From the NCBI RefSeq assembly GCF_007859755.1, contig NZ_SJPF01000002.1, positions 701,729-765,728 on the forward strand: a stretch of DNA of 64,000 nucleotides, read 5' to 3'. Position numbers and translations under genes: made by a program. Every line of letters begins with the position of its first letter. Positions within the stretch are counted from its first letter, which is position 1. Below the pieces are notes generated by a model. The model saw only the letters and a program-made list of their open reading frames with translations, ran no database searches and was not told the DNA's origin. Positions 1,127-21,414 of the stretch are shown here, one piece after another. This stretch comes from Blastopirellula retiformator. GTDB lineage: Bacteria; Planctomycetota; Planctomycetia; Pirellulales; Pirellulaceae.

Positions 1127-2932
1127 TTAGCTGAACTCTCTGGCCAGGCATTCTTCGAGCGTTGCGCGCAACTTGCCGATCTCCATCGGGATCGACGCCA
1201 ACGCGTCGATGTTTTCGTAGTCGGCGAGATCCGCCCCCTCAAGCGTCATTCGATCGGACATGGCGATGATCTTGGGAGGCTGCTCATTATCCGTTTGACT
1301 GACCAGTTGGGTGACGCGACCGGCGATCGAAAACACATCGTACGTCGGCAACTTGCAGTCGACCATCAGAATGTCGAACTCCTTCCGTCGCAGCATCGCC
1401 AGCACTTCGTTCCCATCCTTGGCGACGTCAGACGTATAGCCCAACTGATGCAGCTGCTCGGTCAGATAGAGTTGGAGCGGGCGATTGGGATGAGCGACCA
1501 AGACGTGCCGTTTCGTCGACGTCACTGGGGTATCTTCGCCGTTGCCAACCAGCTTCAGGAAATGGGGGCGTTTGATTTGGGGGCGCCGTGGCGGATTCAA
1601 CCGGCGATGCGAATCGTTCGGCAGGTCGTGTACCGGAATGTCGCACCAGAAGTGCGAGCCCTTCCAACGCACGCTCTCCACTCCCATTTCTCCTCCGAGC
1701 AATCGCACCAACTGAAAAGCGAGCGACAGCCCCAGGCTCGACTTCATGTGCGTTGGCAGACCGCTCAGCCTTCCTTGCGCGAATGCCGCCTGTAACTCTT
1801 CGAGCAATTCGGCGGGCACACCGACTCCGGTATCGAGAACGGAGATCCGGATCCGTCCACCGTTACAATCCCGCGCCATCGTCGTACCGCGAATGTCGAT
1901 ACGGCCCTGAGTCGTAAACTTGATCGCATTGGACAGCAGCTGCACCAAGATCTGCCGAACGATCTGTCCATCGCACTGAACGACTTGGGCGAATCGATCG
2001 TCCCAACTCCACTTCAGAGAAATATCCTTCGATCGCAACAACGAGTAGGCGGAGGCTCCAACCTCTTTGATCACGCCTGAGAGGTCGCAGGGAAATGGTT
2101 TCGCCTGGGTACTCCCCGTCTCGACTTGCGCGATCTGGATGATCTCGCCCACCATCCGTAGCAACGTCGTGCTGCTGGCGAGACTCGCATCGACCAGCGC
2201 GCGCTGCTGGTCAGTAAGCGCAGAGCGAACGAGATGATCATGAACCGCCAAGACGCTCTCAAGCGACGTTTTCAATTCCTGGCACGAAGCCAACAGGAAC
2301 TCGCTCTTGGCGCGACTCGACTGGGCCGACTCGATCGCCAACATGGCGACCACTTCCTTACTGACATGGTTGACGAGATGATTGAAATTCGTCGCTTCCT
2401 CTTGAATGCGAAGCTCATGCGCTTCTTTGAGCAGCTTATTCTCTTCGCGAAGTCGGCGAGCCAGCACTTCCATACTTTTCTGCTGGCCGCGCAGATGATC
2501 AACCAGCGCAAGATGTTGACGCACAAATCGTTCGTATTGCAGAGCGTGCTGAATCACCCGCAGGATCGACTTCCCTTGCACCTCCCGTTTAACGAAATAG
2601 CCGCAGACGCCGCGGCGCAGGATCTCCTGTTCGAGATCATCATCTTCCAGGCCGGTGACCACCAGCAGGATCGTCTGTTGGGTATGCTCGGCCAGGCATT
2701 CGACCGTGTCGACTCCGGAACTATCAGGCAACGTCAAATCGACCAACACCACGTCGTATTGCCGCTTCTTCAGCTGACTGCAGGCCTGACGAACCGTATC
2801 GACACGAGAGACGTCGAAATTGATCGATCCTCGATCGAGCTGTCGTTTTACGGCCGCAAAGTCGGCGTCGTCATCCTCAAGTAGAAGAAGACGAACGACT
2901 CGCTGGTCGATTGATGGGACTTCCTGATTCAT
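1127..2932 (-). CDS. REC - degenerate histidine kinase - REC protein
   Basis: A 601-residue signalling protein. An N-terminal receiver domain (about 10-130, acceptor Asp in VDLTLPDS) is followed by a coiled coil, a HisKA-like dimer helix, a HATPase_c domain (N box LLSNAIKF, G1 DTGVGVP) and a C-terminal receiver (VDCKLP). The H-box reads SEFLLASCQELKTSL where kinases have [15 protein letters not shown], so the phosphoacceptor His is Gln and autophosphorylation in cis is not expected. The start at 2932 was chosen because GGAG lies about 8 bases upstream and the receiver begins soon after. A longer frame to 3316 is Arg-rich and unlike protein. It may act as a phosphate sink or dimer partner of the neighbouring kinases (inference). 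Confidence 0.85.
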   Translation of the reverse strand: MNQEVPSIDQRVVRLLLLEDDDADFAAVKRQLDRGSINFDVSRVDTVRQACSQLKKRQYDVVLVDLTLPDSSGVDTVECLAEHTQQTILLVVTGLEDDDLEQEILRRGVCGYFVKREVQGKSILRVIQHALQYERFVRQHLALVDHLRGQQKSMEVLARRLREENKLLKEAHELRIQEEATNFNHLVNHVSKEVVAMLAIESAQSSRAKSEFLLASCQELKTSLESVLAVHDHLVRSALTDQQRALVDASLASSTTLLRMVGEIIQIAQVETGSTQAKPFPCDLSGVIKEVGASAYSLLRSKDISLKWSWDDRFAQVVQCDGQIVRQILVQLLSNAIKFTTQGRIDIRGTTMARDCNGGRIRISVLDTGVGVPAELLEELQAAFAQGRLSGLPTHMKSSLGLSLAFQLVRLLGGEMGVESVRWKGSHFWCDIPVHDLPNDSHRRLNPPRRPQIKRPHFLKLVGNGEDTPVTSTKRHVLVAHPNRPLQLYLTEQLHQLGYTSDVAKDGNEVLAMLRRKEFDILMVDCKLPTYDVFSIAGRVTQLVSQTDNEQPPKIIAMSDRMTLEGADLADYENIDALASIPMEIGKLRATLEECLAREFS

Positions 2933-3492
2933 GGCTGGCTCCATATTGAGCTCGAATGACCTCGACGCGACGTGAGCGAGCATGCGAGATGGCCTACCAG
3001 GCGGCAGGTTTGTAGAGAGCCCCACCCAATTTGGCAAGGGCATTCCTTGGAAATTCTCCAACAGAACAGTCGCCAAACGAGGTCGCGGACGATGGGCATC
3101 CTGCAGTGGTGTCGATGCATTAGCACGACGGCGGTTCTCGCAGTTGTCGCGAAAGCGTTGCTTCCGAGCGCGGCATGGACGTCTCGCACCTGGCACGAAA
3201 CCAGATTCAAGCGTCTGAGGATAAGTAATCTTGGAGGAAACTCGGCCTCCAACCGCGCAATCCATTGCCGCTGCGAGCGAATCGGCTGCCCGCGTGCCCT
3301 GAAAGAAAAATCGCAAGAAGAGCGTTAGTAAGGGATTACGTCATCTCATTTTCATACGATGACATGGTACGACCTAACATCATTCACCTATTAAGCGTCT
3401 CCATCCTGTTTGACGCCAACAACTTGCTGGCGAATTTTTGTTGTCACGATCGAAAGATCGCTTAAACTGAAACCAGCGAATTGAAAAATGCG
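2933..3492. other. Long intergenic leader upstream of the REC/pseudokinase gene
   Basis: About 560 bases without a convincing gene. Open frames here (for example 2972-3328 plus) have Arg/Cys/Ser-rich shadow composition. The stretch must hold the promoter of the minus-strand gene starting at 2932. No clear sigma-70 boxes or operators were identified by eye. Confidence 0.4.
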
Positions 3493-3639: not shown

Positions 3640-4425
3640 TTAGAGCGCTTCCTGTTCGCTGTTTGAGTTGGATTTGCCGACGCCGATCGCTTCGATCGCG
3701 TTGATTAGCCCCTGCGGGTTGACTGGCTTGGGAAACCAACGATCGATTCCGCGAGCGCCGCTTTCGAGTCCATTTTCTTTGGGCGACGTTCCGCTGAGCG
3801 CGAAAATTTGCGTGGTTTGAATTCGCGAGTCGGACCGAATCTGACGCACGGTCGTCGGACCGTCGCAATCCGGCATCTTCATGTCGACCAAGATTACCTT
3901 CGGCGGAGTTGCCTCTTTGAGATAGTTGAGCACTTCCTGCCCGTTGGCGAAGGTACGGACGCCATAGCCGTGCAACCGCAGAAAGTCGGCGAGCATCTCA
4001 CGCTCGTTGGCGACATCTTCGACCAGCAGAATATTGCCGCTGGTGGGCGCACGTCTTGGGGACCGCTGAAAGACCTGATTCTCGTCAAGTCGCTTCAGCG
4101 AGTGTTGGATGCATTGAAACGCTTCTTCGGCCTCGTCGACATGTCCCGCCCGCTGCAGTTCTCGATACAGGTGCAGACCGATGCTGATCTCATGCAACTC
4201 GTTGCGGATACCATGGCGAATTTCGCGAGGCAGCCGAAGAAACTGGCGACGAATCAAAGAGGCTGTGGAGTCATCGCTTTCGATTTCATCGCGGACAATA
4301 GCAATGTCACGCGGGGCATCGACGCCAATCTTCACGTTCCCCGAATGAATTCGGATGAAGTGAATGGTGATGCCAACCTGAGGGAAAGAAATCTTTTCTT
4401 TCGAATGGCGTGTAACAACTAGCAC
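3640..4425 (-). CDS. CsrA RNA-binding domain fused to receiver domain (copy 1)
   Basis: A 261-residue fusion. Residues 1-50 are a CsrA domain: MLVVTRHSKEKI opening, GITI strand, and APRDIAIVRDEI, where R45 matches the RNA-contacting R44 of E. coli CsrA. Residues 57-120 are helical and contain RHGIRNELHEI (H71), which resembles a kinase H-box. Residues 131-250 are a receiver with acidic pair E136/D137, acceptor D181 in VDMKMP, ALSG and the conserved Lys in FPKPVNP. The GTG start at 4425 is fixed by AGGAAGGAG at 4431-4439 and by the canonical CsrA N-terminus. CsrA dimers bind GGA-containing leaders and control translation or mRNA decay. The receiver suggests phosphorylation control of that activity (inference). 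Copy 2 lies at 14940-15707. Confidence 0.93.
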   Translation of the reverse strand: MLVVTRHSKEKISFPQVGITIHFIRIHSGNVKIGVDAPRDIAIVRDEIESDDSTASLIRRQFLRLPREIRHGIRNELHEISIGLHLYRELQRAGHVDEAEEAFQCIQHSLKRLDENQVFQRSPRRAPTSGNILLVEDVANEREMLADFLRLHGYGVRTFANGQEVLNYLKEATPPKVILVDMKMPDCDGPTTVRQIRSDSRIQTTQIFALSGTSPKENGLESGARGIDRWFPKPVNPQGLINAIEAIGVGKSNSNSEQEAL

Positions 4426-4430
4426 AACGG

Positions 4431-4460
4431 ACTCCTTCCTGCAGTCACCGGAGCGTGACT
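4431..4460 (-). promoter_or_regulatory. Leader hairpin plus double-GGA ribosome binding site of CsrA-REC 1
   Basis: On the minus strand AGTCAC/GTGACT forms a 6-bp hairpin (4443-4460) just ahead of AGGAAGGAG (4431-4439), the ribosome binding site for the GTG start at 4425. Two GGA triplets overlap the binding site, the usual layout for CsrA repression, so autoregulation is plausible but unproven. Confidence 0.5.
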
Positions 4461-4513
4461 ACAAAACGAGGTATAGGAGGCCTAGGGCTCCCACCGTAGG
4501 AAATACCTGCCCC

Positions 4514-4550
4514 GAACCCTAATTGCGTACTGCAATTACCTATTGGGTTC
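4514..4550. promoter_or_regulatory. Imperfect palindrome upstream of CsrA-REC 1
   Basis: GAACCC (4514-4519) and GGGTTC (4545-4550) flank an inner perfect 7-bp stem TAATTGC/GCAATTA with a 5-base loop. It lies in the 298-base gap 4426-4723, about 90 bases upstream of the CsrA-REC 1 start and after the end of the CheB-CheR-kinase gene. It could be an operator or a transcript-end hairpin. No T-run follows. Confidence 0.4.
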
Positions 4551-4723
4551 GTTATTCCTCGCGTGAGCTATCCGTTGCGATCACGAGCGATCGGCTGCTC
4601 GCATGCCATGACCGTCAACGTACCAACCCCTGTTTATTTGGTCAATCTAAATCAGTCTCTTTTTTACAGATCTTGGGCGGGTTGCTGACCCTCACCCTGG
4701 CCGGATCGTTGTTGTGGGTGCCT

Positions 4724-7700
4724 TTAGCGGTGTCCCGCATCGCCCGGTCCTAGGAAGGGCGCAATCGCGCCGGCCAACTCCAGCGGATCGATTGGCTTTA
4801 CCAAGTGCATATCGAAACCGGCGGAGAGCGCCTTGCGACGATCTTGATCTTGCCCGTAGCCCGTTACCGCGACCAGCAGCACCTTCTTGGAGATGTTCGC
4901 TCGCACGCGCTGCGCCAGCTCATAGCCGTCAATGTCGGGCAACCCGATGTCGACGATCGCTACCTGTGGTTCGAATGCGTGGAATCGCTCCAAGCCGTCG
5001 ACGCCGTTGTTCGCCGTGTCGACCGTAAACCCCTTCAGCTCTAGCGAACGAGCCAACATCCGCCGAATGCTATCGCTATCCTCAATCAACAGCAGCCGGG
5101 TTCCCTTGAGAATCGTGAATCCGACCTTCGCAGCGTTTGACGGCGGCGCCGCCGTCAGTGGAAGCCGGATCGTAAACACGCTCCCCATCCCCTTACCGAA
5201 ACTGGTCACTTCGACCCCGCCGTTGTGGGCTTCTGCGATCATTCGCACCAGCGACAACCCCAGGCCCATGCCTCCCTGCGAGCGGTCGATCGTCTGTTCG
5301 GCTTGTACGAAGGGCTCGAAAATCTGGTCCGCAATTTCCACAGGAATGCCGTCTCCCGAGTCGCCGACGCGAATCACAACCTCGCCCCCTTCGCGGGTCA
5401 CGCTGTAGCGAATCGTACTTCCCTTCGGACTGTACTTGCTGGCGTTGACCAGTAGATTGACCTGCGCCTGTTGCAGTCTTCCGATGTCGCCATCCACGAA
5501 CAGCGGCACGTCAGGGGGTTCCAGATCGAGCTGTTGCTTGCAGGTCTCCAACTGATGGCCGACGCAATCCACCACGTCCATCACGATCTTCGAGATATCG
5601 ATGACCTCGGTGTGCAACACGAGCTTGTCGTTGGCAATCCGCGCGACGTCGAGCAGGTCGTCCAGCAACCGGGAAATGTGTTGCAGCTGATGTTCGACCA
5701 CTTCCCGCGCTTCGTCGCTGGTCGACTGATCGACTCCTTCCTCTTTCAGCAAACTGTTGGCGTTCAAAATGGCGGCGAACGGATTGCGCAGCTCGTGCGA
5801 CAACATCGCCAGAAATTGATCGCGCCGGCGAACCGCTTCCCGAATCTTCGATTCCGCCTTCTTCAGCTCCGAGATGTCGCGGGCGATCGCCGAAGCGCCG
5901 CTCACCATCTTTTTCGAGTCTCGAATCGGCGTGATGTGCAGCGACATGTCGAGCGCTTGCTGACCATGGCTAAGCCAGACGGTGCGATGATCGCTAACCG
6001 GCTTGCCTTCGGCCACTTCTCGCAAGAGCGACTGCATCGCCACTTCGCAGCTGTCGGGCATCAGCATCGAGAAAGGGCGTCCAATCGCTTCCTTCTCGGC
6101 ATATCCGAGCATCTCGCTCGCTCCGCGGTTCCAGGTCCGAATCGTCCCGTCGAGATCAAACCGGATAATCGCATCGGAAGACTGCTGCACGATTTCGGAT
6201 AGCTCGGTCAGGCGGGTCTCGGCGCTCTTCAGCGAAGTGATGTTGATCAACGTCATGACCAACCCTTCGACCGTCTTCCTCGAGAAGTAGGGAAGAATCC
6301 GCAACAGGTACCAGTCTTCGTCGGCGCCCCCGACTTCCAACTCCAGCGGCTCTTCCGACTGTAGCACTTGCTCCAACGTATCGAGCAGCGCCAGGTTTTT
6401 GACGTTGTGCGTGAAGCTGTCGATTCGACGGCCGATATCCTGCGGGATCAGGTTGAACGTCTTGGCGATGCCCGGCGTAAACTTCCGGATGCGAAACTCA
6501 CGATCGAGAAAGACAGTGTCGACCTCGGTACTGTTGAGCAGATTCTCCATATCGTCGGTCAATTCAGTCAGCTCAGCAATTTTGCGCTGATGCTCCATAT
6601 TGACCGTATAAAGCTCTTCGTTGACCGAGTTCAACTCTTCATTGGTGCTCTGCAACTCTTCGTTCGAAGCCAGCAGCTCTTCGTTGGAGGACTGCAACTC
6701 CTGGTTGGTCGACTCCAGTTCGGCGATGGTCGCCTGCAGGCTCTCTTTGGCGTACTGAAGCTCCGCCTCGAGAACTTCGACCTGCTCGGGCGAGATGCCT
6801 TCTTCCAGCTCGATAATCGAGTACGATCGCTCCTCGAAATCGCATTGCTGAGCGTCGAACACGATGAGAAACTCGTGCCGATTGGCGGTGCGATTGAAGA
6901 ACGGCTTGATGACCAACTTCAGATCTTCGTCCGGCATCGACGAGCACTTCAGTCCCGCGTGCACCACCGGCGACTGCTCTTTGACGCAGCGCTGCATCGC
7001 CGTCAGCAGCGCCATTTTTAGGTCGGGATGGACCAGCTCGACGACGTCGGTCGAGGGACGTCCATCCTTGTGAGTCAAGTACTTGCTGGCGCCCGAAAAA
7101 ACATGCAGCAGATCGCGGCTGTCGGTCACCAGAATGCTGGGCGGCATAAACTCTTCCAGCAACCGGTCGTACATCTCCAATTGGTGGGCGACGCCGCCGC
7201 GGTTGGTCTGCGGCAGCGCCCGGTTGCCGTATTGACCGACGCCCACTTTGACAGCGCCGCGGTCGCTGGCCGACAGCCGGACGTCGCGGCGTTTGCGATA
7301 GATATGCCAATGTTCGTCTTGCACGTCAAACTCGGGGCCCAGATCTCCCAGCGTTTCGCTCGGCCCCAACCACATGACGCCATTGACCTTGAGGGCAAAG
7401 TGAAACAGCGACAGCGCCTTCTTCTGCGCTTCGGGACGCAGATAAATCAACAGGTTACGGCAGCTGACGAAGTCCATGGCTGTGAACGGCGCGTCGCGAA
7501 TCACATTGTGCGGCGCAAAGACGATCATCTTCCGCAAATGGGGCGATACCTGATAACCATCGCGGCGTTTGACGAAATACTTGGCTACCCGCTCTGACGT
7601 GATGTCGCGCAGGTTGTCTTCGGTGTAAACGCCGCGGGCGGCGACTTCGAGCGAGCGATTATGGACGTCGGTCGCAAAAATTCGGACCGGGACGAAGCTG

Positions 7701-8719
7701 GGGTGCCTTTCCAGTTCCTCGCTGATCAGCATCGCCAACGAGTACGCCTCTTCGCCGGTTCCGGTCCCTGCGATCCAAAATCGCAGTTCTTGCTGGGGCG
7801 TGGCGTTTTGGACCAGTTCTTGGATGACCGATCGATGAATCAGGTCGAACCCTTCGGGGTCGCGAAAAAACCGCGTCACGCCGATCAGCAGATCGCGATA
7901 GAGCTTGTCCAGTTCATCTTCGTCGGTATTCAGCCGGTCTGCATAAGCCGCTAGATCGTAAACCTGATTCAGCATTAGACGACGTTCGATTCGCCGCGAA
8001 ATCGTCCCCGATTTATAGTGCGAGAAATCGATGCCAAATTTGTTTCGCAGCAGGCGAATGATCGCTATGTAGCTCGGATCGACGCCATTTTGGGCCGCCG
8101 GCTCGTCCGAGTTCGCTACCGGCAGTTGCTGTGGTCGCGTCGTCAATTGATGAATTTGCTCGACGATCTGCTCTGGCGGATAGATGCCGTCGACGACGCC
8201 GGTATTGACCGCGGCGTTCGGCATGCCGTCAAATTTCGCGGTCTGGGCATCTTGCACTAACACGTATCCGCCGGCCGCATGGATTTCGCAAATGCCGCGT
8301 GAGCCGTCTGATCCCGTACCGGAAAGGATGACTCCAATCGCTTTGCCACGACACTCTTGCGCTAGTGAGCGAAAAAACTGATCGATCGGCAGCGATAGTC
8401 CGTTTTCGCGAGTGCGGTCCGCAATCAACAACTTGCCGTCCGCGACGATCATTTCTTTGCCAGGCGGGATAAGATAGATGTGTCCCGGCAAGACGCGCAG
8501 TTCGTTCGTCGCTAGACATACCGGCAACGAAGTGAATCGCCCTAGCAGATGACCCATCATGCTTGGTTGTTCCGCAGGAAGATGCTGAACAACTACGTAA
8601 GAGAATTTTGAGTCGACCGGCACCTGGCGAAAAAACCGTTCCAGGGCTTCCAGCCCGCCTGCCGATGCGCCAACTCCGACGATCATCGTCTCTTCACAAA
8701 CCGTCTCGATTTGATCCAC
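4724..8719 (-). CDS. CheB-CheR-PAS-histidine kinase-receiver hybrid
   Basis: A 1331-residue multidomain protein. CheB methylesterase domain (about 10-195) has the nucleophile motif GASAGG (S19), the His in VVQHLP and the Asp in SGTGSDGS. CheR methyltransferase (about 210-480) has the SAM loop [11 protein letters not shown] and [10 protein letters not shown] coiled coil of repeated NEEL heptads (about 650-725) leads into two PAS domains, HisKA with intact SHELRNP, HATPase_c ([23 protein letters not shown]) and a C-terminal receiver ([16 protein letters not shown]). The GTG start at 8719 is supported by AGGAAG five bases upstream. CheB/CheR fusions to kinases occur away from chemotaxis operons; here no MCP, CheA or CheW is present, so the methylation substrate is unknown. 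It is one of three related genes in the island. Confidence 0.92.
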
Positions 8720-8780
8720 GTCTTCCTGCCCCCAGAGACGCCTACATTTATTGCAGTTTCGCGATCGATTTTACTTGCAC

Positions 8781-8815
8781 TGTATTGTCGTGCCCCCCCC
8801 TTTTTTTGCAATACA
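8781..8815. promoter_or_regulatory. C8T7 homopolymer tract inside a 7-bp inverted repeat
   Basis: TGTATTG (8781-8787) and CAATACA (8809-8815) flank a run of eight C and seven T (8793-8807). The tract is 74-88 bases upstream of the GTG start of the CheB-CheR-kinase gene, in its 181-base upstream gap. Runs of this kind vary in length by slippage, so it may tune or switch expression (inference). Confidence 0.5.
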
Positions 8816-8900
8816 AAGACCTCCAATTCTCACACCGCCACATTAGAAATGCGGTTAACCCCATTTCGACTAGACGATGAAGGGTCTTGTCTTGCGACGT

Positions 8901-11462
8901 TCAAAGCTCTGGATCCTCAAGTCGGCGATGGATCGCCAGAATCGAGGTCGCATCAATGAGCGTCAGGACGACGCCAGCCAAGCCCCGAATTCCTTGATAG
9001 GGCAGAACGCGCATTAAGTAGCTCCCTTTTGTGCGCGATTCGACAGCTCGTTCGATCGGCTGTTGCGTTTCTAAGACCTGCCGCACGTCTTCGATCGGCT
9101 CGACATCGACCAGGTTATGGGCGATATGACTGATCGGGCGTCCAATGTCCTGATCGAGAATGTGGAACACCTCTTTCGCCTCGGCCGTAAACTTGCGGAT
9201 CTTCAAGTCGTTATCCAGGAATACCGTCCCAATCCTCGTGCTCTTGAGCAAGTGATCCATATCTTCGGTCAGCTGCGACAGCTCGGTGATCTTCTTCTGA
9301 TGCTCCGAATTGACGGTGAACAGCTCTTCGTTCACGCCATGCAGTTCTTCGTTGGTGCTTTGCAGCTCTTCGTTTGACGCGACCAGCTCTTCGTTGGCCG
9401 ATTGCAGTTCCTCGTTGCTCGTCTCCAGCTCTTCGACGGTCGCCTGCAAGGTTTCCTTCGTATAGTCGAGTTCACGCTCCAGCGAGACGATCCGCTGCGC
9501 CGATTGGTCGGCCGAATCAAAAGGAACGGCGACCGTCTCATCGATCACCGGGAGGTCTTGCATTAGCTCCAGCGTGACGAGAAACATTTTCTCCGCACTT
9601 TTGTTGTAAGGTTCGGCAACCAGCCGATAGAGTCGCTCTCCGGTCGTCGTATTGACTCGAACCCCTTCAAACATGATGGTCGTGCCGGTCGTTGAGGCCT
9701 TATGCAGCGCGGCGTTCATCGCCGTCCGCAAGTCCCCTTCAACCATCCGTAAGACGTCCAGAGTCGCCTTCCCTTCGGGCTGCACCAACAGTCGCCGCGA
9801 GTCGCCAAACGAATGGACCAGTTCCAGGTGCTGATTGATCAACAGACTGGGCGGGACATATTTGGCGAGCAGGTGGTCGTAGACTTCGGGAACGAGCCAC
9901 GACTTGTCCGTTCTCGTCTGCGTCGCCACATACGAGGGGCGGTTGAACACGACGCGATTGAGCGCCGGTTGCGGTGGGATTGGCCCCGTTTCCGTCAGGC
10001 GCACGTTTCGCAGCTTGCGATAAACCCGCCACTGACGATCCACTGGCTCAAACTCTTTGTCCAGATCGCCAATGCTCTCGCTCGGTCCCAAAAACAAGAT
10101 GCCGCCCACGCTGAGCCCGAAGTGGAACAGCGAGAGGACGCGCTTTTGCACTTCCTGGTTGAAGTAGATCAGCACGTTGCGGCAGCTAATCAGATCGATT
10201 CGGGTAAAGGGAGGATCCTTGGTGATGTCATGCGGCGCGAAAATCACCTTTTGCCGCAGCTCCGCCGAAATATGGTACAGATCGCCGATTCGCGTAAAGT
10301 ACTTGTCGCGGAACTCGATCGGCATTCGCGAAACGCTGGCCGAAGAATAGACGCCGGAACTGGCCGTCTCCATTGAAGTCTGGTGAACATCCGAGGCGAA
10401 TAGTTTGAGATCGACGTCGACCCCTTGTCGTTCGATACACTCGGTCGCCAACATCGCCAACGAATAGGCCTCTTCACCGGTCGCGCAGCCGGGTACCCAA
10501 ATCCGCAGTTCGCCGGTATCGGCGGCTCGCTCAACCAGTCGCGGAAAGATGTTATTACGCAACAGCTGAAACGCGTCGAGATCGCGAAAGAATTGGGTCA
10601 CTTCGACCAATAGATCGCGATACAGCACGTCCAGCTCGCGCGAGTCTCCCTCCACCAACTGCGAATATTCGGCCAGCGACGAGCAGCGCGACAACTTCAC
10701 CCGCCGCTCAATTCGACGGACGATCGTTGTCGGCTTGTACATGCTGAAGTCGATCCCGTATTGATTCCGAAACAGCCGGAAGATCGTCGCCAGTTCGCCC
10801 GACTCGGACAGCTCCTCATCTTGCCCCGCTTGATCGACGAACGACGAGGGACTTTGGATATACTCCAAAATCCGACTCGCGATACTATCGGGCGGGCAAA
10901 CGACGTCAGCCAATCCGGTGCCTAGCGCACTGCGCGGCATCCCGTCAAACCCGGCCGACTGGATCGATTGCACGACGACCAGCCCGCCGGCCTCATGCAC
11001 GTCCTGAATCCCCCGCGAACCGTCGCTGCCGGTCCCCGACAGGACCACGGCGATCGCACGCTCTTTGGCGTCTTTGGCCAGCGAACGAAAGAAGATGTCG
11101 ATCGGCAGGTTCAAACTTCCCAGGTTTTGATCGATTAGCTGAAGCTTCCCTGCGGCGAGTTCCATGTTCTTCTTCGGCGGAATCAAGTAGATCGCATTGG
11201 CCTCGATCTCCATGCCGTCTTCAACTCGGTGGATCGGAATCTTGGTGCGGCGGGCCAGCAGCTCGTCCATCAGACTCTTGAAGTCGGGCGATAGATGTTG
11301 GACGACGACGAACGCCATGTTGCTGTCGACCGGCATGTTGTCAAACAGCCGCTCCAGCGCCTCTAGCCCGCCGGCCGATGCGCCGACGCCGACGACATAA
11401 AAGGATTTCTTGTCGCGTTGGAGAAGTTCTCCCGGCGAACTCGATGCGTCTTGCTCATTCAT
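8901..11462 (-). CDS. CheB-CheR-PAS protein without kinase
   Basis: An 853-residue protein with CheB (about 22-205; GASAGG with S29, [15 protein letters not shown]), CheR (about 235-500; [20 protein letters not shown]), a NEEL-rich coiled coil (about 660-730) and a terminal PAS domain. It stops soon after the PAS and has no HisKA or HATPase. ATG at 11462 has AAAAGG as its ribosome binding site, which lies inside the last codons of the upstream gene. The stop of that gene is only six bases away, so the two are almost certainly co-transcribed. The sequence is closest to the 1094-residue neighbour, which suggests tandem duplication followed by loss or gain of the kinase module. Confidence 0.9.
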
Positions 11463-11468
11463 GATGAC

Positions 11469-14400
11469 TTACCTTTTGGCCCGCACCAGGCCAGTCTTAT
11501 CCTCTCGGGGAAATTGCAAGAAAAAGGTGCTGCCGCGTCCCGGGGTCGATTCGACCCACATCCAACCGCGGTGCCGGTCCATGATGCGTCGACAAAGGGC
11601 GAGCCCTAAGCCGATTCCATCGCAATCCTCTTTCATCCCCAGTCGCTGAAAGATGATGAAAATGCGTTCGTAGTTTCGCTGCTCGATCCCAATTCCGTTG
11701 TCGTGCACCGAAATCAACCAGCCGCCGTCGCGAGTTCTCGCCCCAACATGAATTTTGGCGGGGCGATCGTCCCGAAATTTGATCGCGTTGTGGATCAGCT
11801 CTTGCAGGCAGATAACCAGTTGAGCTTCGTCGCCTTCGATCCGCGGCAACGGTTCGTACGTCACGGTGGTTTCGGTCGCTTGGATTTCCGCGTTCAATTC
11901 GATCAGCGCCGTCTCGATCACTTTGTCGAGCGAAACGCTCTCTAAGTTGGCGCCGCGCGTGTTGACCCGCGAATAGGCGAGCAGCGACAGGATCATCCGG
12001 TCCATTCGAACCGACGAGTTGCGTATGCCCTCCAAGTGCTCCTTGGCGTCTCCCACGTTCGTCGCCGATTCGTCGATGCGGCTGATGAACTCCTGAATAT
12101 GGCGCAAGGGAGTCTGCAGGTCGTGCGACACGGCGTAGGCGAACTCTTGCAACTCCTTCTGACTGATAACCAAATCCTCTTCCGCCTGCTCGGCCAGCGA
12201 TGCGGCGACCTTGACGGCGGTAATGTCGTCAAACGTCAGCACCAGGCCGTCCGAGGCGCCCGACTCGTCAAAGTAGGGCCGCACCCGTTTTAGATAGGAT
12301 CGTCCCTCTCGGCTGCGCACTTCTTTCTCGAGCGTGTCGCCCGACTCCAGCACAGCGCGGAGGTCGTTGATCAGGTCGAAGTTTTCCAGGTTGTAGCTGA
12401 TGTGTTGAATCGGCCGTCCGACGTCGTGTTCGACAACGTGAAATGCGGAAGCGATCGACGGGGTAAATTTGCGGATGCGCAATTCGTTGTCGAGAAAAAT
12501 AGTGCCGATATCGCTGCTGGTGAGCAAGTTGTCCAGGTCGTTCGTCAGCGCCGTCAACTCGTCGATTTTCCGTTGATACTCAGAGTTGACCGTATACAAC
12601 TCTTCGTTGACGCTATGCAACTCTTCGTTGGTGCTCTGCAGTTCCTCGTTCGATGCGATCAACTCTTCGTTGGTCGACTGCAACTCTTCGTTGCTGGTCT
12701 CCAATTCCTCAACCGTGGTTTGCAGCGACTCGCGGGTATGATCGAGTTCCTGCTCCAACTCGTCGATCCGACCGCTGCGCTGCTGGTCAAACTCAATCGT
12801 TTGCGTCGTCTCGACAGGCGCCTGCGCCACTTCCTGCTGCTCTTCCAAACAGATCAAGAACAACTTGCGACTACCCTTTAAATAGGGCTCGACCCGCACA
12901 TTCAGACGGCGGTCGCCGATCGCCGTCTTCGCGATGACGCTGCGAAAGGTGACCGTCTCGTCCTGTTGATTGGCGCGATGCAGCGCCGCGGTGACGGCTG
13001 TTTGCAGATCGCCTTCGACCATCCGAGACACATCCAAAGTGGTTCGTCCCGGCGGCTGGACCAACATCTTGCGAGCCTCGCCAAAGGTGTGAATCAACTC
13101 AAAGAACTCATTCACAAGCAAACTGGGCGGCACATACTTGGCCAACAGGTCTTCATAGGCGCCCGGCAGGAACCAGGAGTCCTCCGGTTTCGATCCGCCA
13201 TTGCCGCCAATCTGCGTCCGCCCTTGCGAGATGGCGGCCGGCGGGGGAGCGATCGGCATTCGCGCCGACTCGGGTAGCCGCACGTCGCGCAGTTTCCGAT
13301 AAATTCGCCAGTGCTGGTCGATGGTCTCAAATTCTTTCGCCAGGTTGCCGATCGTTTCGCTCGGTCCCAGCATCAACGTTCCACCGACACGCATACCGAA
13401 GTGGAACATGGCCAAAATTCGCTTTTGAATTTCGGGTTCCAGATAGATCAACACATTGCGACAACTGATCAAGTTAATGCGGGTAAAGGGTGGGTCGCGG
13501 GTCAGATCATGCCGGGCAAAGACGACCATCCGCCGAATTTCGGGCTTGATATGGTAGAAGTCGCCGTGCAGCGAAAAGTACTTGTCGCGATAGCGCGCCG
13601 GCATATTCTCAACTGATTTCGGAGCGTAGACCCCAGCGCTGGCGATCTCCATCGATTTTTGATGAACGTCGCTGGCGAAAATCTTGACGCTCAACGATCG
13701 CTGCATTCTCTCGGCGGCTTCATGCACCAGCATCGCGATCGAATACGCTTCTTCGCCGGTAGCGCAGCCCGAAACCCACCCCCGGATCTCATCATCCGCG
13801 GCACATTCGGCGACAATTTTCGGAATGACGTCCGTCTCCAACCGGCGGAACGCCTCGGGATCGCGAAAGAAGGAGGTCACTTCGACCAATAAGTCTCGAT
13901 ACAGCAAGTCGAGCTCGTCGGTGTTGTTGTCCAATTTGTTGACGTAGTCGCCCAGGTCGGCGACCTGCGAAAGTTGCATCCGTCGCTCGATGCGCCGCTG
14001 AATCGTCGCCGCCTTGTAGTGCGTAAAATCGATCCCAAACCGCTGACGAAACAGGCGAAAAAGCGCCGGAAGAGCACCTTCGTCCGAGTAGCCCGCGTCT
14101 TCGACCTGACCCCGCTGAAAATCGCCCGGCTTGCCGATAAACTCCAAAATCTTGCCCGGCATCGATTGCGGTCGGCATACCAGGTCGGCGAATCCGGTCG
14201 CAGCCGATGCCCGGGGCATGCCGTCAAATCCAGCCGACTCTGAATCTTGAATGACGACCAAGCCGCCGCTTTGATGGATGTCACGAATCCCCCGCGATCC
14301 GTCCGATCCGGTACCGGAAAGGACGACGCCGATGGCATGTTTCCCCTGGTCTTTCGCCAGCGAACGAAAAAAGACGTCGATCGGCAGTTTAAAGCCGGAG

Positions 14401-14753
14401 TCCCGATCGTGTTGGGTAAGGCGGAGAACGCCGCCTTCGATCGTGATATCGTGTTTCGGTTGCAACAGATAGATCGCATTCGGCTCGACACGCATCCCAT
14501 CTTCCACGCGATGGATCGCAATTTGCGTGTGCCGAGCCAAGAGCTGATCCATCAGGCTCTTGAAATCGGGGGACAGATGCTGCACGACCACGAACGCCAT
14601 GCCGCTATTCTTCGGCATATGATCGAAGAACAGTTCTAGCGACTCCAGCCCACCGGCTGAAGCGCCAATGCCTACCACATAAAACGGAGCTTCAGCGGGC
14701 GTTTCGTCCGCGCCGGCCTCGTCCGCAGGCGACGTGGCGTCTGGTGTGGTCAT
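11469..14753 (-). CDS. CheB-CheR-PAS-histidine kinase
   Basis: A 1094-residue protein: CheB (about 24-210; GASAGG with S32, [15 protein letters not shown]), CheR (about 225-505; [20 protein letters not shown]), long NEEL coiled coil (about 660-745), PAS, then HisKA with [10 protein letters not shown] and HATPase_c ([24 protein letters not shown]), a phytochrome-kinase-like ending. It lacks the receiver seen in the 1331-residue paralogue. The start at 14753 (MTTPDATS) was chosen because the CheB domain follows at once. The longer frame to 14843 adds sequence with no match to the family. Its ribosome binding site is weak (GGGG about 10 bases upstream). It is first in a two-gene unit with the kinase-less paralogue. 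Confidence 0.9.
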
Positions 14754-14939
14754 CCAATTCTGCCCCAAAAGCGACAATTTTTTTCTGCCGTATTGTAGCA
14801 ATTGGATTTCCGGTTGCCATTCAGTTCTCCACAATCCCCTCATAGGGAAGCAAATAGAGAGCCGTACTACGCCGCATTTTTCCTATCAATCGCCGCCGTG
14901 CTCGCTGTGGCGATCCAGGCTCCTGTCGGTGACGGAATT

Positions 14940-15707
14940 TCAGTTCAGTACGCTTTCGCGATGGCAGCCCGAACCTTCGATGATTTCTTCAACGAGGTTG
15001 CTAGGATTGATCGGCTTTTGAAACCAGCGATCGCAGCCCTGCGGCCCCAGTTCGACGCCATATTCGGTCGGATGAATCCCGCTGACGGCGAATACCTTGA
15101 GATGCTCGTACTTGGCGTTCCGGCGAATCTCGCGAACGGTCCATCCGCCGTTGAACTTCGGCATGTTCATGTCGAGCAAGATCACGTCGGGCATCGTGTT
15201 TTGCGCCAAGTAGCGGATCGCATCGGCGCCATTATTGACGGTCGCCACCTCGAACTGTTTGAGACTCAAAAAGCTGGCCAACAAGCGGGCCTCGTTCACG
15301 TTGTCATCGACGACTAGCGCCCGGCGGATCACCGCGCCGGAAGCATCTTGCTCTGGCGGCGACCATTGCTTGACTTGGCGATCAAGCGCGTCCAGATCAC
15401 GAATGATTCGCGTTAATAGGGCCAGAACATGCCCGGAGTCGGTAATTTCCGCCGCCTTTTGCACCTGTTCCAGCGATTGAATCGCCCGGTGCAGATGATC
15501 GGATATCGGGCTGAGGCCGAGCTTGTCGCGATTGACGGCCAGACCGCTGAACTCGCTCGGCGGAAGTTCTTTGCGGCGAACATGCACTTCGGGAGGAGCG
15601 TCGATGCCAAGCCGAACCTTCGACTTGGAAAGCTGCAGAACCTTGATGGTGATTCCGAGGTTTGAGAACTCAATCGATTCGGACGAATTGCGAGACAGAA
15701 CGAGCAT
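14940..15707 (-). CDS. CsrA RNA-binding domain fused to receiver domain (copy 2)
   Basis: A 255-residue paralogue of the protein at 3640-4425. CsrA domain at residues 1-50 (MLVLSRNSSESI, GITI, VRLGIDAPPEVHVRRKEL, with R45 in the RNA-contact position), helical linker about 58-118 with histidines near residue 71 (SDHLHRAI), and a receiver at about 128-245 (VVDDN acidic pair, acceptor D179 in LLDMNMPKF, AVSG, conserved Lys in FQKPINP). The ATG at 15707 follows AAGGAAA and gives the canonical CsrA N-terminus; an in-frame TTG at 15725 is less likely. The leader contains an AGGA-loop hairpin 27 bases upstream. Two fusions in one kinase-rich cluster argue that they are the output end of the cluster (inference). 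Confidence 0.93.
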   Translation of the reverse strand: MLVLSRNSSESIEFSNLGITIKVLQLSKSKVRLGIDAPPEVHVRRKELPPSEFSGLAVNRDKLGLSPISDHLHRAIQSLEQVQKAAEITDSGHVLALLTRIIRDLDALDRQVKQWSPPEQDASGAVIRRALVVDDNVNEARLLASFLSLKQFEVATVNNGADAIRYLAQNTMPDVILLDMNMPKFNGGWTVREIRRNAKYEHLKVFAVSGIHPTEYGVELGPQGCDRWFQKPINPSNLVEEIIEGSGCHRESVLN

Positions 15708-16017: not shown

Positions 16018-16443
16018 TTAGCGATCCGATGGCGAGTCTTGTAAGCTCCACTCAACATCGAGCTTGCTCAGTTGATCGGCGAACTGTCGTCCCTTGCACA
16101 GATAGCCGGAAATATGCGGCTTACATGCGTCGAGTGCGCCCGGATCATACCAGGAACTTGCCAATACGAAGATCCGATGAGATTGGAGCTGCGGATCGTC
16201 TCGGACCACTTCCAGAAACTCTTGTCCCGACATCCGCGGCATGTTTAAGTCGAGCAGTATGCAGTAGACCGAATCATGCTCCGGCGCCGCTGCGGTTGCC
16301 CGTAAGACTTCCAAACCTTCTTCTCCATCGCGAACTCGCACGACCCGATTGGCGATTCGCTGACGCGTAATCGCTCGCCGCATCGAATCGGCGTCGATGT
16401 CGTCATCATCGATGATCAGGATCGTCATCTCGCTCGCAACCAT
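16018..16443 (-). CDS. Single-domain response regulator (Rcp1-like)
   Basis: A 141-residue stand-alone receiver. It has the acidic cluster IIDDDDIDAD near the N-terminus, acceptor Asp in LLDLNMPRMSG, the Ser of VLASSW and the conserved Lys in LCKGRQF. The insertion pattern around EHDSVYCILLDLNMP is typical of receivers paired with phytochrome-type kinases. It lies 31 bases after the large CHASE hybrid kinase in the direction of transcription, so it is probably co-expressed and could shuttle phosphate between that kinase and the CsrA-REC protein just downstream (inference). ATG at 16443 is preceded by GGAAGT; Met6 is an alternative start. Confidence 0.85.
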   Translation of the reverse strand: MVASEMTILIIDDDDIDADSMRRAITRQRIANRVVRVRDGEEGLEVLRATAAAPEHDSVYCILLDLNMPRMSGQEFLEVVRDDPQLQSHRIFVLASSWYDPGALDACKPHISGYLCKGRQFADQLSKLDVEWSLQDSPSDR

Positions 16444-16474: not shown

Positions 16475-19400
16475 TCAATTGGTTTGGCAATAGCGGTGGA
16501 GATAGGGCAGCAGGCCCGAGACCATCGCGGCTAACTTCGCCGCTTGCTGGTCGGCCGAATCGAAATCGCCGCGGGTTCCCCGCTGCTCCAGATCTAACGC
16601 TATTGTAGCCGCTTCCATTTGGTGAAAAAAGCGAAGGCCGCTTTTTAATTTGTGGGCCGAGACGGTCAGCCGATGGTCGTCCTGCTCTGCAATCGCCTGC
16701 TGGACGCTGCGAATACTCTCCTCCATTTCCTCAGCATAGGTCGCGACAATTTCGACCAGCACGGGACGATTGTCCCCCAAGCGCGATAAGATTTTCCGCC
16801 AAGGCACCGGCGAGTCTTCGCTGACCACCGCCGGCGTCTCCGGCGACCGCTCGCTTTGGGCCTCTACCGCGACCGCCTCTGGGCCGGCAATTCGCATCGC
16901 GCTGTCGATCGCCGCGAACAGCGAGTCCGGCAAAAGCGGCTTCGATACGTACGCATCCATCCCAGCCGACAGACAACGCTCGCGATCGGTCTTCAGCGCG
17001 TGGGCGGTCGTCGCGACGATCGGCACATGGCCGCCCGTTTTTTGTTCGTACTCGCGGATCAGATAGGCGGCGGTCAGGCCATCCATCTCCGGCATCTGCA
17101 CATCCATCAGGATCACGTCAAACTGACCGTCTTTGACCGCCTGTAGCGCCTCAACGCCGTTCTCCGCAATGGAGATCTGATGGTTTCGACGCCTTAGAAT
17201 TGCGGTCGCCACTTGCTGATTGGCGCGGCTATCTTCGCACAACAAGATCCGCATTCCCGCTGTGGCCGATTCGGCCGGCGGCGGAAGCGTCGACGCCGCC
17301 TGGTCGATGTTCCCACTCAAGCCAAGCCCCTCGACCATCGCCTCCAACAATTCGGACGGTTTCACTGGTTTACAAATCTTCGACGCGACTGGAACTCGAG
17401 CGGCGTTACCGAGGCTTTCAATTCGTCCAGCGGAGACCAGGATCACCACCGGTAGGCCATATCGCTCGGGGGCGCCGTTAACAGTCTGGATCAACTCCAG
17501 ACCATCAAAGTTCGGCATCTTCAGGTCAGTAACCAACAGATCAACTTGCCTTTGAGCCTGCTTTTCGGCCTGCAAGATGCGCAGCGCCGCTTCACCCGAT
17601 TGGGCCTGCAGCGTCTCGATTTGGTGTGACTCCGCCACGTCGCACAGCGTCAATAGATCGAGTTCGTTGTCGTCGACGATTAGCGCTCGCCGACCTCGCA
17701 GGCCTTCCACAATCGTCCACCACGGCTCCGAGATCTCTCCCTCACTGCGACGGAGGCGCACCGTAAACCAAAACGTACTGCCGACGCCCAACTCGCTCTC
17801 GACGCCGATTTCTCCTCCCAGTTGATGCACCAGCCGGGACGAAATCGTCAGTCCCAACCCGGTGCCGCCATACCGCCGCGTGGTTGAAGTATCCGCTTGT
17901 TCAAACACGTTGAAAATCGACGCTTGCTTTTCCGCCGGGATGCCGATGCCGGAATCTTTGACCGAGAATTTCAGCAGGATTTCCTGCGGGTCGAGATCCT
18001 CCTGCTCGACGGCGGCGACGCGAACATCGACCGTTCCCTGAGTCGTAAACTTGATCGCATTGCCGGTCAGATTGATCAATACCTGCCCCAGTCGGCGGGC
18101 ATCTCCCCGGAGTTCGCCGGGAACGTTGCGGGCGACGTGATAGCTCAGCTCGACGGGTTGATCCAGCGTTTTTGCGGCCATCGGCTTGAGAAGCTTCGCG
18201 ACCAACTCGTGCGGTTGAAACGGCGCCTCCTCCAGATCGGACTTCCCCGCTTCGATCTTCGAGAAGTCGAGAATATCGTTGATGATTTGCAACAACGTAC
18301 TGGAAGATTCGGCGACGGTGTTCAAATATTCGCGTTGTTCGCTCGACAGGTCGGTTCGCAAAACGGAGTCGGTCAAACCGATGATTGCATTCATGGGAGT
18401 CCGAATCTCGTGACTCATGTTGGCCAGAAACTCGCTCTTCGCCAGATTCGCTTTTTCCGCAATCCGTCGCGCCTCGCGGGCCTCCTCTTCGCTTTGCCGA
18501 ACTTCGACCATCAGATTGTGCGACAGGGCCATGCTTCTTCCCATCGACCACATGACGCCGACCAACAGCAGCGACAATATCGAGCCGGCAACCCCAATCA
18601 TCGCCGGCATGGTGCGGTCGATGCGACTCTCAAACACCGGTGAACTAACGGTCGTCACCGCCCACTTGCGCCCGCCAGCGTCAATTACGGTTCGCTCCAC
18701 AAACTTGCGAAAGCCTTGCCCCTGCAGTTCGGCCTCGACCTGGTCAGGGGTGCGATCGCCGTACAGTTTGATTCCCGCTTCATTTTCTTCGATGTCGAAG
18801 ATCATGATCTCGACGTTCCCTTGAGTCCGACTATCGATGCCCGCGAGCGCTTTGTTCAAAATGATCGGCGCGTACAATACGCCGCGCAGCCGCGCCAATC
18901 GTTCCGCCTCAGAGTCAGGCGTTTCCAGAGAATCATAGAGTGGCAAGTAGTAAAGAAAGCCGCTCGTCTTGGCGTTGTCTTGCAGCAGTTCGATCCGCCC
19001 GGTGATCGTTGGTTTCCCGGTCAACGCCGCCTGCTCGATGGCGGTTCGTCGGGTCGACTCCGAACCGATATCGAAACCCCAGGCCTGCCGATTTCGGTCA
19101 AGTGGGAAAATGTAGCGAATAATGAATAAGTCCGCGGCGTCTCCCTTGGTCAGCACCTCGAAATCGGGGCCGTCGTCGTCTCGCACCTCCTGCACGAAGT
19201 TCTTCAACTCGGATCGTTCGACGCGTTGAATCAAGCCCAGGCCGATCGCCCCCGGAAACTCGGTAGCCAAATCGCGCGACTTGACCATCGTAGCGAACTC
19301 ATTCCGAGACACCTCTTCGCGCGACAAATACAAGCCGCGCAAACTTCGCAGGCCGTATACGACGCGATTGACGTTGCGCTCGATATCCTCCACAACCAAG

Positions 19401-20239
19401 TCGGTGAAGTACGAGAACTCCGCCTGTCTCGAATCGCGAATCGTCTTTTGAGCGTCACTCACCAGGTTGCCGGTAACCAGCAGACCGACGACCAGCGTAC
19501 CGATGATAATGCCGGCGACCGGACGAGAACGGCGCAGTTCGGCCAGCGCCAGCTGGCGATCAGCGTCGGTCCGAATAAACCGCAAGCCGCGCCATACCAA
19601 AAAGAACCCGGCCGCGATCAGCGCTAGCAACATCGCCGTATGAATAGCCGTCGTCGAAAAGATGCTGGCGTCGCGGACGTTGGTACGCAGCAGGAACAAG
19701 AAGATGCTGATCAAACCCATTACGCCGGCCAGTGATGCGATCGTCTTGCGAACCCACGACGGCACGAACCCAGAGATCAACTGGCTGATCGCTAACAGCG
19801 CCAAGCCAATGGCGGTGCCAGTCGACATCCGTCCCGGTGGATTTCCCTGATCGACCGAACGGGCATCGGCGCTGACCAGCGTATCAATGCCCAAGTCGAT
19901 CTGCAGGCCGTCTTCGACCAGGCTCAGACTCGCCAACAACAAGACGAACGCGGCCAAGCCAATCGCCGACCAATTCACCTGGTCGCCAATCGCGTTCATC
20001 CGCGCTCTTAACAGGCCGATCGCCGCCAAGACGGCCAGCCCGAGGGCCGTGTTGAACTTCATCGTCGGCAGACCGTCGATCAGCGAACGGAGCGTGATCC
20101 AACCTGCCGGCCAAGCCAACATCACCATCAACGTCGTCGCCAGCGACAAGCCGAGAAGAATTCGCCCCAAGATCAACAACCAGGCGGCGGAAACCACCTG
20201 CATTTCACGTGAGCTCGCTGACAATGCGTTCCTAGTCAT
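16475..20239 (-). CDS. Membrane CHASE hybrid histidine kinase with two receivers and Hpt
   Basis: A 1254-residue hybrid kinase. The N-terminus has about seven hydrophobic segments (within 15-262), followed by an extracytoplasmic CHASE domain (about 285-500; [13 protein letters not shown] and YLPLYDS are family-like) and another membrane segment near 570. Cytoplasmic parts follow in order: HisKA with [12 protein letters not shown], HATPase_c ([24 protein letters not shown]), receiver 1 ([11 protein letters not shown]), receiver 2 ([17 protein letters not shown]) and a C-terminal Hpt whose phosphorylatable His is in SAHKLKSG. All phosphotransfer residues are present, making it the complete relay of the island and the likely sensor input. 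CHASE domains usually sense small extracellular molecules; the ligand here is unknown. Confidence 0.92.
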
Positions 20240-20325: not shown

Positions 20326-21414
20326 TCAGTTGCGGATTTGCTCGCCTTCAGCATCGGGAATCGTGAACGAGATGGTCGTACCTTCGCCAACTTCCGATTC
20401 GGCCCAAATGCGACCTTCATGCTTTTGCACAATGCGTTTGCAGATCGCCAGGCCGATCCCCGATCCTTCAAATTCTTTTTGGGTATGGAGACGCTGGAAG
20501 GGAGCGAAGATCGATTCGCAGTTCTTGGGCTCGATGCCGATCCCATTATCGGCGACCGAAATCCGCCAGCCGGTCGCTTCTCGCGTCGCCGAAATCCGTA
20601 CATGCGGCTTGGCGTTACGGCAGAACTTGATCGCGTTGGAGATCAGGTTTTGGAACAACAGGCCCAGGGCGACTAGATCGCCACAAACCGCGGGCAAGGG
20701 GCAATCGCACTCGACGATCGCCCCCGATTCTTCAATTGGCACCACCAGGTTTTGCAGGGCGACCTCTTTGGCCACTTCCAGCGAGGCAATTTCCTGGGGA
20801 CGGCGAAGATCGCCATGCAGCGCGAAATCGATCAAGCTCTTGACCAACGCTTGCAGTCGCTCGGCGTTCACGCCGATCATCTGGACGTAGCTCGCCGACT
20901 CTTCGTTGATTTTGCCTTCCAGATCTTCGTGCAGGAAATCGGCAAGCTGGGTGATCCGCCGCAAGGGCGCTTGCAGATCATGAGCCGCCATCCGCGCGAA
21001 ATTGGTCAGTTCCCGCTGGCGCTGGGCCAATTCTCGCACCAGACTGACTTTCTCGATCGCGTTGGAAAGCGCGCGGCGAACCGTATCGGGCGTTAGCGTA
21101 TCTTTGACCAGATAGTCTTGTGCTCCCAGCTTCAAGCTTTCGACGGCGACGTTTTCGTTCCCCTGGCCAGAAATGGCGATGATCGGCACGTCGCTGCCCG
21201 ACTCGCGAATCTTGGTCAGCACCTCCCAGTCGTGCGCGTCCTCAAGCCGGTAATCAAGAAAAACGGCGTCAAACTGGCTCTCTTCGAGTTGGTGCAGCCC
21301 CTCTGTGCCGCTCAGCGAGTGAGCCACATCAAACCGCTGCGGCCAGGCCTGGCTCAGCATCGCTTGCAACAATCGGGTGTCGGCCAGGCTGTCGTCAATG
21401 ATGAGCAAGTGCAT
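20326..21414 (-). CDS. Receiver-histidine kinase
   Basis: A 362-residue soluble protein: receiver (1-125; LLIIDDS, acceptor in VFLDYRLED, conserved Lys in LVKDTL), then HisKA (about 135-200) with intact [12 protein letters not shown], and HATPase_c (about 245-355; [25 protein letters not shown]). The receiver-first layout fits a kinase controlled by an upstream phosphodonor. It is the first gene of the leftward block that continues into the CHASE hybrid kinase 86 bases on. ATG at 21414 begins directly at the receiver. The 686-base gap on its other side separates it from the divergent REC-kinase at 22101. Confidence 0.9.

Follow-up and report, generated by a model that had tools for sequence, protein, structure and literature searches.

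CsrA-receiver fusion proteins of Blastopirellula retiformator with a kinase-like hairpin: possible phosphorelay end-points that act on RNA

Introduction

Can RNA binding by a CsrA domain be controlled by kinases through a receiver in the same protein? This question is raised by two genes of the planctomycete Blastopirellula retiformator, which lie within a stretch of 64,000 nucleotides (the window, to which all unlabeled positions refer) and are named here fusion A (3640..4425) and fusion B (14940..15707), both on the minus strand. A preliminary description had held that CsrA normally receives no covalent signal input. This part needed amending, as CsrA is already listed, together with ANTAR, among the RNA-binding outputs of response regulators in a passage of a 2007 paper (PMC2222644, citing Galperin 2006). 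Among the papers listed for our search terms in the open-licence literature, judged by title or the start of the abstract, we found no study of a CsrA-receiver protein, and a search combining CsrA with planctomycete terms gave none on such proteins by title. The architecture class is hence known; new within that literature, as far as searched, are the A/B pair, the coupling of the fusions to CheB-CheR sensor kinases, and a middle domain that is DHp-like and has a characteristic residue pattern. On balance, we favor the reading that A and B are phosphorelay end-points which control RNA binding directly.

Results

Both fusion genes are real: each lies on the minus strand, the plus-strand reading at their coordinates is interrupted by stops, and both domains exceed the Pfam cut-offs (CsrA, 49.0 bits in A and 52.9 bits in B, cut-off 27; Response_reg, 67.7 and 68.0 bits, cut-off 30.2). 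Chance open reading frames (ORFs) were rejected as an explanation because 156 non-identical homologues were found. A has 261 aa and a GTG start. Its CsrA domain (residues 1-49; 4279..4425) is followed by a two-helix, DHp-like hairpin (residues 67-114; 4084..4227; assigned from AlphaFold helices and the family profile match) with His71 (approximately 4213-4215) and Asn75, and by a receiver (residues 132-245; 3691..4032) with the acceptor D181. B has 255 aa, counted from the methionine of MLVLSR, and joins its CsrA domain to a receiver through a helical middle without the box His. HATPase_c was found by Pfam in neither.

R6 and R45 of A and B align with R6 and R44 of E. coli CsrA, of which R6 presumably contacts RNA from strand 1. 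The role of R44 is treated in parts of two papers (PMC7366521, PMC7652899). The RNA-contact arginines claimed in the preliminary description are thus present in both proteins, and so are all catalytic residues of the receivers: E136, D137, the acceptor D181, S211, and K233 in A, and the D-D-K set together with the Ser, by alignment, in B. At position 4, A has Val, although Leu is found there in 54 of 59 members. With 35.6-43.6 bits, the fusions miss the NCBIfam CsrA equivalog cut-offs (70.1 and 73 bits); by sequence, they hold a CsrA domain but are no canonical CsrA.

The family set comprised 156 non-identical members from 161 stretches (the window, L041-L085, and L171-L285). A member was an ORF of <700 aa, non-identical in its first 150 residues, which matched the A2 profile from position <=5 with a score >60. 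Partial matches such as L084 were left out, as were many further profile matches, mostly near relatives of included ones (e.g., genera g59, g343, g11), and therefore the counts are no census. Three members have no hairpin and one has no receiver. R6 is kept in 156 members, R45 in 155, the acceptor Asp (D181) in 153, and the Lys (K233) in 146. The sole member without the strand-5 Arg, L085:8001-8711, has Asp at the aligned position. L069:9865-10329 encodes 154 aa with CsrA and a hairpin-like region but no receiver. In L067, L263, L262, L260, L284, L265, L285, and L066, the receiver has an altered or absent Asp or Lys while the CsrA arginines are intact; loss of the signal input thus seems to precede loss of RNA binding as the output.

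The middle of the proteins had been described simply as helical. For A, the helices are borne out by prediction, whereas a neutral linker does not fit a DHp-like region in which A has a conserved box His and B lacks it. AlphaFold placed helices at residues 67-93 and 96-114 of A (27-sequence alignment), and the hairpin segment alone was modeled as a confident hairpin (34-sequence alignment; mean predicted local distance difference test score, pLDDT, 95.8). In the full model of A, a single chain, residues 1-10 and 41-50 are poor (mean pLDDT 63 and 59). The first hairpin helix holds the box H-x-[LIF]-R-N-x-L-N. When profiles were compared by hidden Markov models (HMM-HMM), 91 non-redundant His-bearing hairpins matched 62 DHps of same-locus kinases with a probability of 96.7% (E 3.5e-10), and the alignment placed the box His on the phospho-acceptor His of the kinases. 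All 121 non-redundant hairpins, with or without His, gave 94.0%, masking of the His in both sets left 80.3%, and the reversed and coiled-coil controls stayed at <1%. HisKA is the commonest Pfam family over 34 hairpins (16/34 at E<=10, best E 2.2e-5), and SPOB_a occurs in 4/34 (E<=10, best E 0.0064); the hairpin of A alone reaches HisKA with E 0.097 and 13.2 bits, below the cut-off of 26.9. From this likeness, the middle domain of A resembles a kinase DHp hairpin, with no ATPase domain accompanying it.

Three other assignments were rejected. A simple linker does not agree with the DHp homology in the profile comparison. TPR repeats match some members weakly, with HisKA being commoner over the hairpins, and the H-x-x-R-N box is no TPR feature. 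An Hpt domain found no Pfam match, neither in A or B, nor among the 25 families for 27 relatives, nor among the first 25 of 37 families for the 34 hairpins.

The residues around the box follow a distinct pattern. His is present in 122/156 members, and 111 of these 122 have Asn at +4, but only 43 have an acid at +1; among the His-less members, N/T at +4 is found in only 5/31. A has Gly at +1, so the kinase-type acid is absent, and B has Ser at the aligned position of the box His, followed by Pro. In the kinase DHps of the family loci, the +1 acid is present in 140/140 aligned sequences (152 kinase ORFs searched). This count was made without the pattern that had been used to choose the 62 DHps (D/E at +1, P at +5), but with a profile from those 62, so some bias stays. 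In HisKA kinases, according to the part of PMC3510030 that treats these residues, kinase activity depends on the +1 acid and phosphatase activity on the +4 Asn/Thr, and neither residue is needed for the other activity. Keeping the +4 Asn while mostly losing the +1 acid thus points to phosphotransfer or dephosphorylation rather than autokinase activity.

The presence of the His goes along with the type of kinase nearby. Beside a receiver-bearing kinase, His is kept in 73/74 members, and beside a receiver-less kinase, it is absent in 9/12 (Fisher p 4.6e-9, kinship ignored). It is also absent in all ten members in which the Asp or Lys of the receiver has been replaced or lost. Both patterns would be expected of a His -> Asp -> His -> Asp relay. 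Where His is kept beside a receiver-less kinase (L259, L201, L204), a receiver gene or a receiver-bearing kinase lies nearby; these neighbors were spotted after counting, and 9/12 was left as it is. His-less B members likewise have receiver genes nearby. Of six partner-kinase C-termini read by eye, that of L264 looks like an Hpt. The fusion of this locus (L264:6491-7354) is an A-clade copy with odd changes in all three domains, and there is no CheB-CheR gene in the examined stretch. We dropped it as a natural experiment (CheB-CheR gone, His replaced) because it looks decayed.

Kinase genes are frequent neighbors of the family. A CheB-CheR gene lies <=600 bp from 60/156 members, and another histidine kinase without CheB-CheR from 31 further ones, giving 91/156 members near a CheB-CheR or histidine kinase gene. 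The CheB background is 1-7 matches per genome in 20 genomes, and three of the six CheB matches in the B. retiformator genome fall between A and B. Around the eight plain csrA loci of this genome, a window of 1.5 kb held no match to a kinase, receiver, CheB, or CheR domain (E<=1e-3). The expectation that the receiver makes CsrA responsive to kinases is hence supported for the kinase input, whereas phosphorylation-dependent RNA binding is a prediction only.

That the window holds two paralogues, which may form hetero- or homodimers, could be made more precise, since A and B belong to two separate clades that occur together near the same kinase type in 12 genomes. The A clade has 17 members, 16 of them with His (support 99 in the Shimodaira-Hasegawa-like approximate likelihood-ratio test, SH-aLRT), and the B clade 16, none with His (SH-aLRT 96). 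In the 12 genomes with both genes on one contig, the window's genome included, His is found in A in 12/12 and in B in 0/12. The order B, CheB-CheR kinase, (CheB-CheR), CheB-CheR kinase with receiver, A also occurs in G390, G472, G473, G527, G618, G619, and G703, where the last three have no middle CheB-CheR gene and have extra kinase or receiver genes. It is partial in G039 and rearranged in G614, G616, and G625. In the latter three genomes, the B-clade proteins have 186-190 aa, with CsrA joined straight to the receiver and no hairpin (L232:13454-14014, L235:14148-14720, L238:4752-5312). G546 carries a pair of fusions on a single contig; each has the His, and each falls outside the A and B clades.

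In the window, A and B are part of nine same-strand genes running from 21414 down to 1127, and kinase and receiver genes throughout this run agree with the phosphorelay setting described before. All of the following genes are on the minus strand and were assigned with Pfam. The run starts with REC-HisKA-HATPase (20326..21414, 362 aa; REC, receiver) and a CHASE-HisKA-HATPase-REC-REC-Hpt kinase of 1254 aa (16475..20239) with its own Hpt (28.3 bits, cut-off 24.6), followed by a stand-alone receiver (16018..16443, 141 aa) and B. The neighbor kinase of B, CheB-CheR-PAS-HisKA-HATPase, has no receiver (11469..14843, 1124 aa), and that of A, CheB-CheR-PAS-HisKA-HATPase-REC, has one (4724..8719, 1331 aa). 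Between these two kinases lies a CheB-CheR-PAS protein without a kinase domain (8901..11462, 853 aa). After A, the run ends with a REC-histidine kinase-REC gene (1127..3316) of <=729 aa, the true start of which is possibly internal; two receiver stretches and HATPase_c exceed the Pfam cut-off, and HisKA, with 20 bits, is below the cut-off of 26.9. Window positions 30-854 encode a secreted-looking protein with a C-terminal tail that, as we take it, resembles the PEP-CTERM motif.

Related fusions occur in other planctomycetes. Profile matches with E<=1e-30 were found in 102/241 genomes of the same planctomycete family, although in two of these (G501, G610) the match stops short of the CsrA part, in 61/346 genomes of an order sample, and in 16/392 of a phylum sample. 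The three samples overlap, and the tallies are lower bounds as only 6-10 candidates were scored per genome. A wider contig scan gave at least 80 loci, and among the matches listed, 15 had E <1e-30 (L071-L085), 14 in planctomycete records, where we take Isosphaera and Thermoguttaceae to be planctomycetes, and one (L072) labeled only "bacterium". For the other 65 of the 80 listed loci, the alignment is mostly over the receiver region. Bythopirellula polymerisocia Pla144 (L075) is a named carrier among the matches listed; the matches of L084 and of Rhodopirellula rubra each span query residues 38-249 only.

In the genome of B. retiformator (6.2 Mb, 10 contigs), 13 CsrA stretches exceed the Pfam cut-off, and three of these belong to CsrA-receiver genes. 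Besides A and B, there is one at G000:C1:1245238-1246005, with a divergent histidine kinase-receiver gene 189 bp away. A canonical csrA stands beside fliW (G000:C3:895634-895789 and 896087-896422; L002, L286), so the fusions would be an extra control route and no replacement, and FliW control may coexist with them. Another locus (L010:1489-1890; G000:C1:449459-449806) has a 133-aa ORF with two tandem CsrA domains, a possible single-chain CsrA dimer as judged from its domains. The ORF upstream presumably resembles, by motif, the C-terminus of a tyrosine recombinase, hence the tandem-CsrA ORF may sit in a mobile element.

Discussion

How could kinases act on the CsrA part? A and B would be response regulators with RNA binding as their output, and we consider it probable that their RNA binding is kinase-controlled. 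The neighboring CheB-CheR kinases would be the cognate partners that supply phosphate to the receiver, and phosphorylation of the receiver would alter how the CsrA dimer, with its GGA-binding surfaces, meets RNA, turning binding either on or off. Known CsrAs are intertwined dimers, and a DHp hairpin normally forms a dimeric four-helix bundle; both dimer elements thus fit one homodimer with the receivers at its outer end. CsrA dimers contact RNA via strands 1 and 5 of opposite chains, as stated in a part of PMC7652899. Phosphorylation could open or close these RNA faces of the homodimer.

In A, the hairpin most likely serves as a phosphotransfer module, with phosphate presumably passing from the kinase His to the kinase receiver Asp, then to His71 and to D181 of A. 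Steps three and four of the relay, together with the RNA-binding output, would then reside in a single chain. The assignment of His71 as the relay residue is tentative, at slightly less than even odds. B has no such His and its neighbor kinase has no receiver, so the B receiver is expected to obtain its phosphate either directly from a kinase or from the Hpt carried by the 1254-aa kinase, which lies two genes upstream. A bolder and more doubtful extension is that the last half of a four-step relay (His, then Asp) lies inside one RNA-binding protein, that phosphate flow and not sponge RNAs sets CsrA, and that the A/B pair, one relay-competent and one direct, shares the CheB-CheR kinases and may form mixed dimers which integrate two inputs.

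Several observations weigh against this phosphorelay reading. The 30 His-less hairpins alone do not match the kinase DHps (0.3%). Pfam HisKA is found in only 4/27 full-length members and not in full-length A, and TPR families match hairpins weakly (<=6/34 for one family). Compared with PDB sequences, the hairpin profile gave 23 matches at E<=10; most of these were TPR or designed helical proteins, and neither a histidine kinase nor Spo0B was among them. The fold search with the hairpin model gave no match at E<=0.001 and neither a histidine kinase nor Spo0B among the 50 matches listed, of which CsoR and Rop hairpins were the best. In the model of the whole of A, for which receivers make up 49 of the 50 fold matches listed, the domain arrangement is unreliable (predicted template-modeling score 0.57). 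No histidine kinase or CheB-CheR gene lies <=600 bp from 65/156 members. The L264 fusion stands without His beside a receiver-bearing kinase, but this copy looks decayed. On the tree, the association of His with the partner kinase reduces to four supported contrasts (mean 1.5 for, 0.0 against, 2.4 uninformative; sign test, median p 1, range 0.5-1), with the reverse test giving three contrasts, 1.9 in favor; the association of receiver decay with His loss reduces to five contrasts, 4.3 in favor (median p 0.125, 0.06-0.25). Once kinship is corrected for, His and kinase type show no significant association. The informative contrasts mostly agree with the two patterns; for the sign test to reach 0.05, at least six of them would be required. 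With few contrasts and none of the tests <0.05, the relay is the leading but unproven model.

Three rival explanations were considered. The fusions could be plain response regulators: phosphate would go from the neighbor kinase straight to the receiver, and the DHp-like hairpin would be no more than an inherited scaffold for dimerization. This agrees with the absence of the His throughout the B clade (16/16) and with the three genomes whose B-clade proteins have 186-190 aa and no hairpin, where the hairpin is thus dispensable. A scaffold, however, does not need a His in 122/156 members or a +4 Asn in 111/122 of these, nor the tendency of the two to co-occur, with N/T at +4 in 5/31 members without His; we regard this explanation as rather unlikely. 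Slightly less likely still is a built-in phosphatase, in which the hairpin uses the HisKA phosphatase residue to reset a receiver, either its own or that of the kinase. The kept +4 Asn and the mostly lost +1 acid form just such a kinase-minus, phosphatase-plus pattern by the residue roles given in a part of PMC3510030. The same source reports that the kinase variant CrdS H371A keeps much phosphatase activity: the half-life of the phosphorylated regulator is 2.6 min with this variant, 0.7 min with the wild type, and 53.5 min alone. Strict conservation of the His is hence not accounted for by phosphatase activity alone. The requirement for the His varies, though, as PleC H610A loses both activities (PMC3510030, in the part consulted), which softens this point.

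The third explanation, which we consider improbable, is that of a dominant modulator: the fusions would mix with canonical CsrA chains, or A with B, and titrate these or the RNA, while the receiver sets stability or localization. Such mixing would find partners in a genome with 13 CsrA stretches above the cut-off, including the canonical csrA beside fliW, but the RNA-contact arginines of the fusions are intact.

A single histidine separates the relay, phosphatase, and scaffold models, which makes for a clean test. If the phosphorelay reading is true, CsrA would be switched directly by a covalent change in these proteins, and a phosphorelay would have RNA binding as its last step. The antagonists of CsrA described to date are small RNAs and proteins (sRNAs, FliW, and CesT, in the part of PMC7652899 that names them).

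Comparison with known systems

With the CsrA/RsmA family, the fusions share the Pfam CsrA domain and both RNA-contact arginines; they differ by the added C-terminal DHp-like and receiver domains and by scores below the NCBIfam equivalog cut-offs. Spo0B is a DHp phosphotransferase without kinase activity. Like Spo0B-type and other kinase-inactive DHp phosphotransferases, A has a two-helix hairpin with the box His and no ATPase domain, but its hairpin is in one chain with the presumed acceptor receiver and an RNA-binding domain. Response regulators with RNA-binding output (ANTAR and CsrA classes), compared here through a brief mention in the source, likewise fuse a receiver to an RNA-binding domain, whereas the fusions carry their output domain at the N-terminus and have a DHp-like domain between it and the receiver. 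In the BarA-UvrY/Csr cascade, as outlined in a part of PMC7652899, a two-component signal also reaches CsrA activity. There, the regulator drives transcription of the sponge RNA, whereas in the fusions the receiver belongs to the CsrA protein itself.

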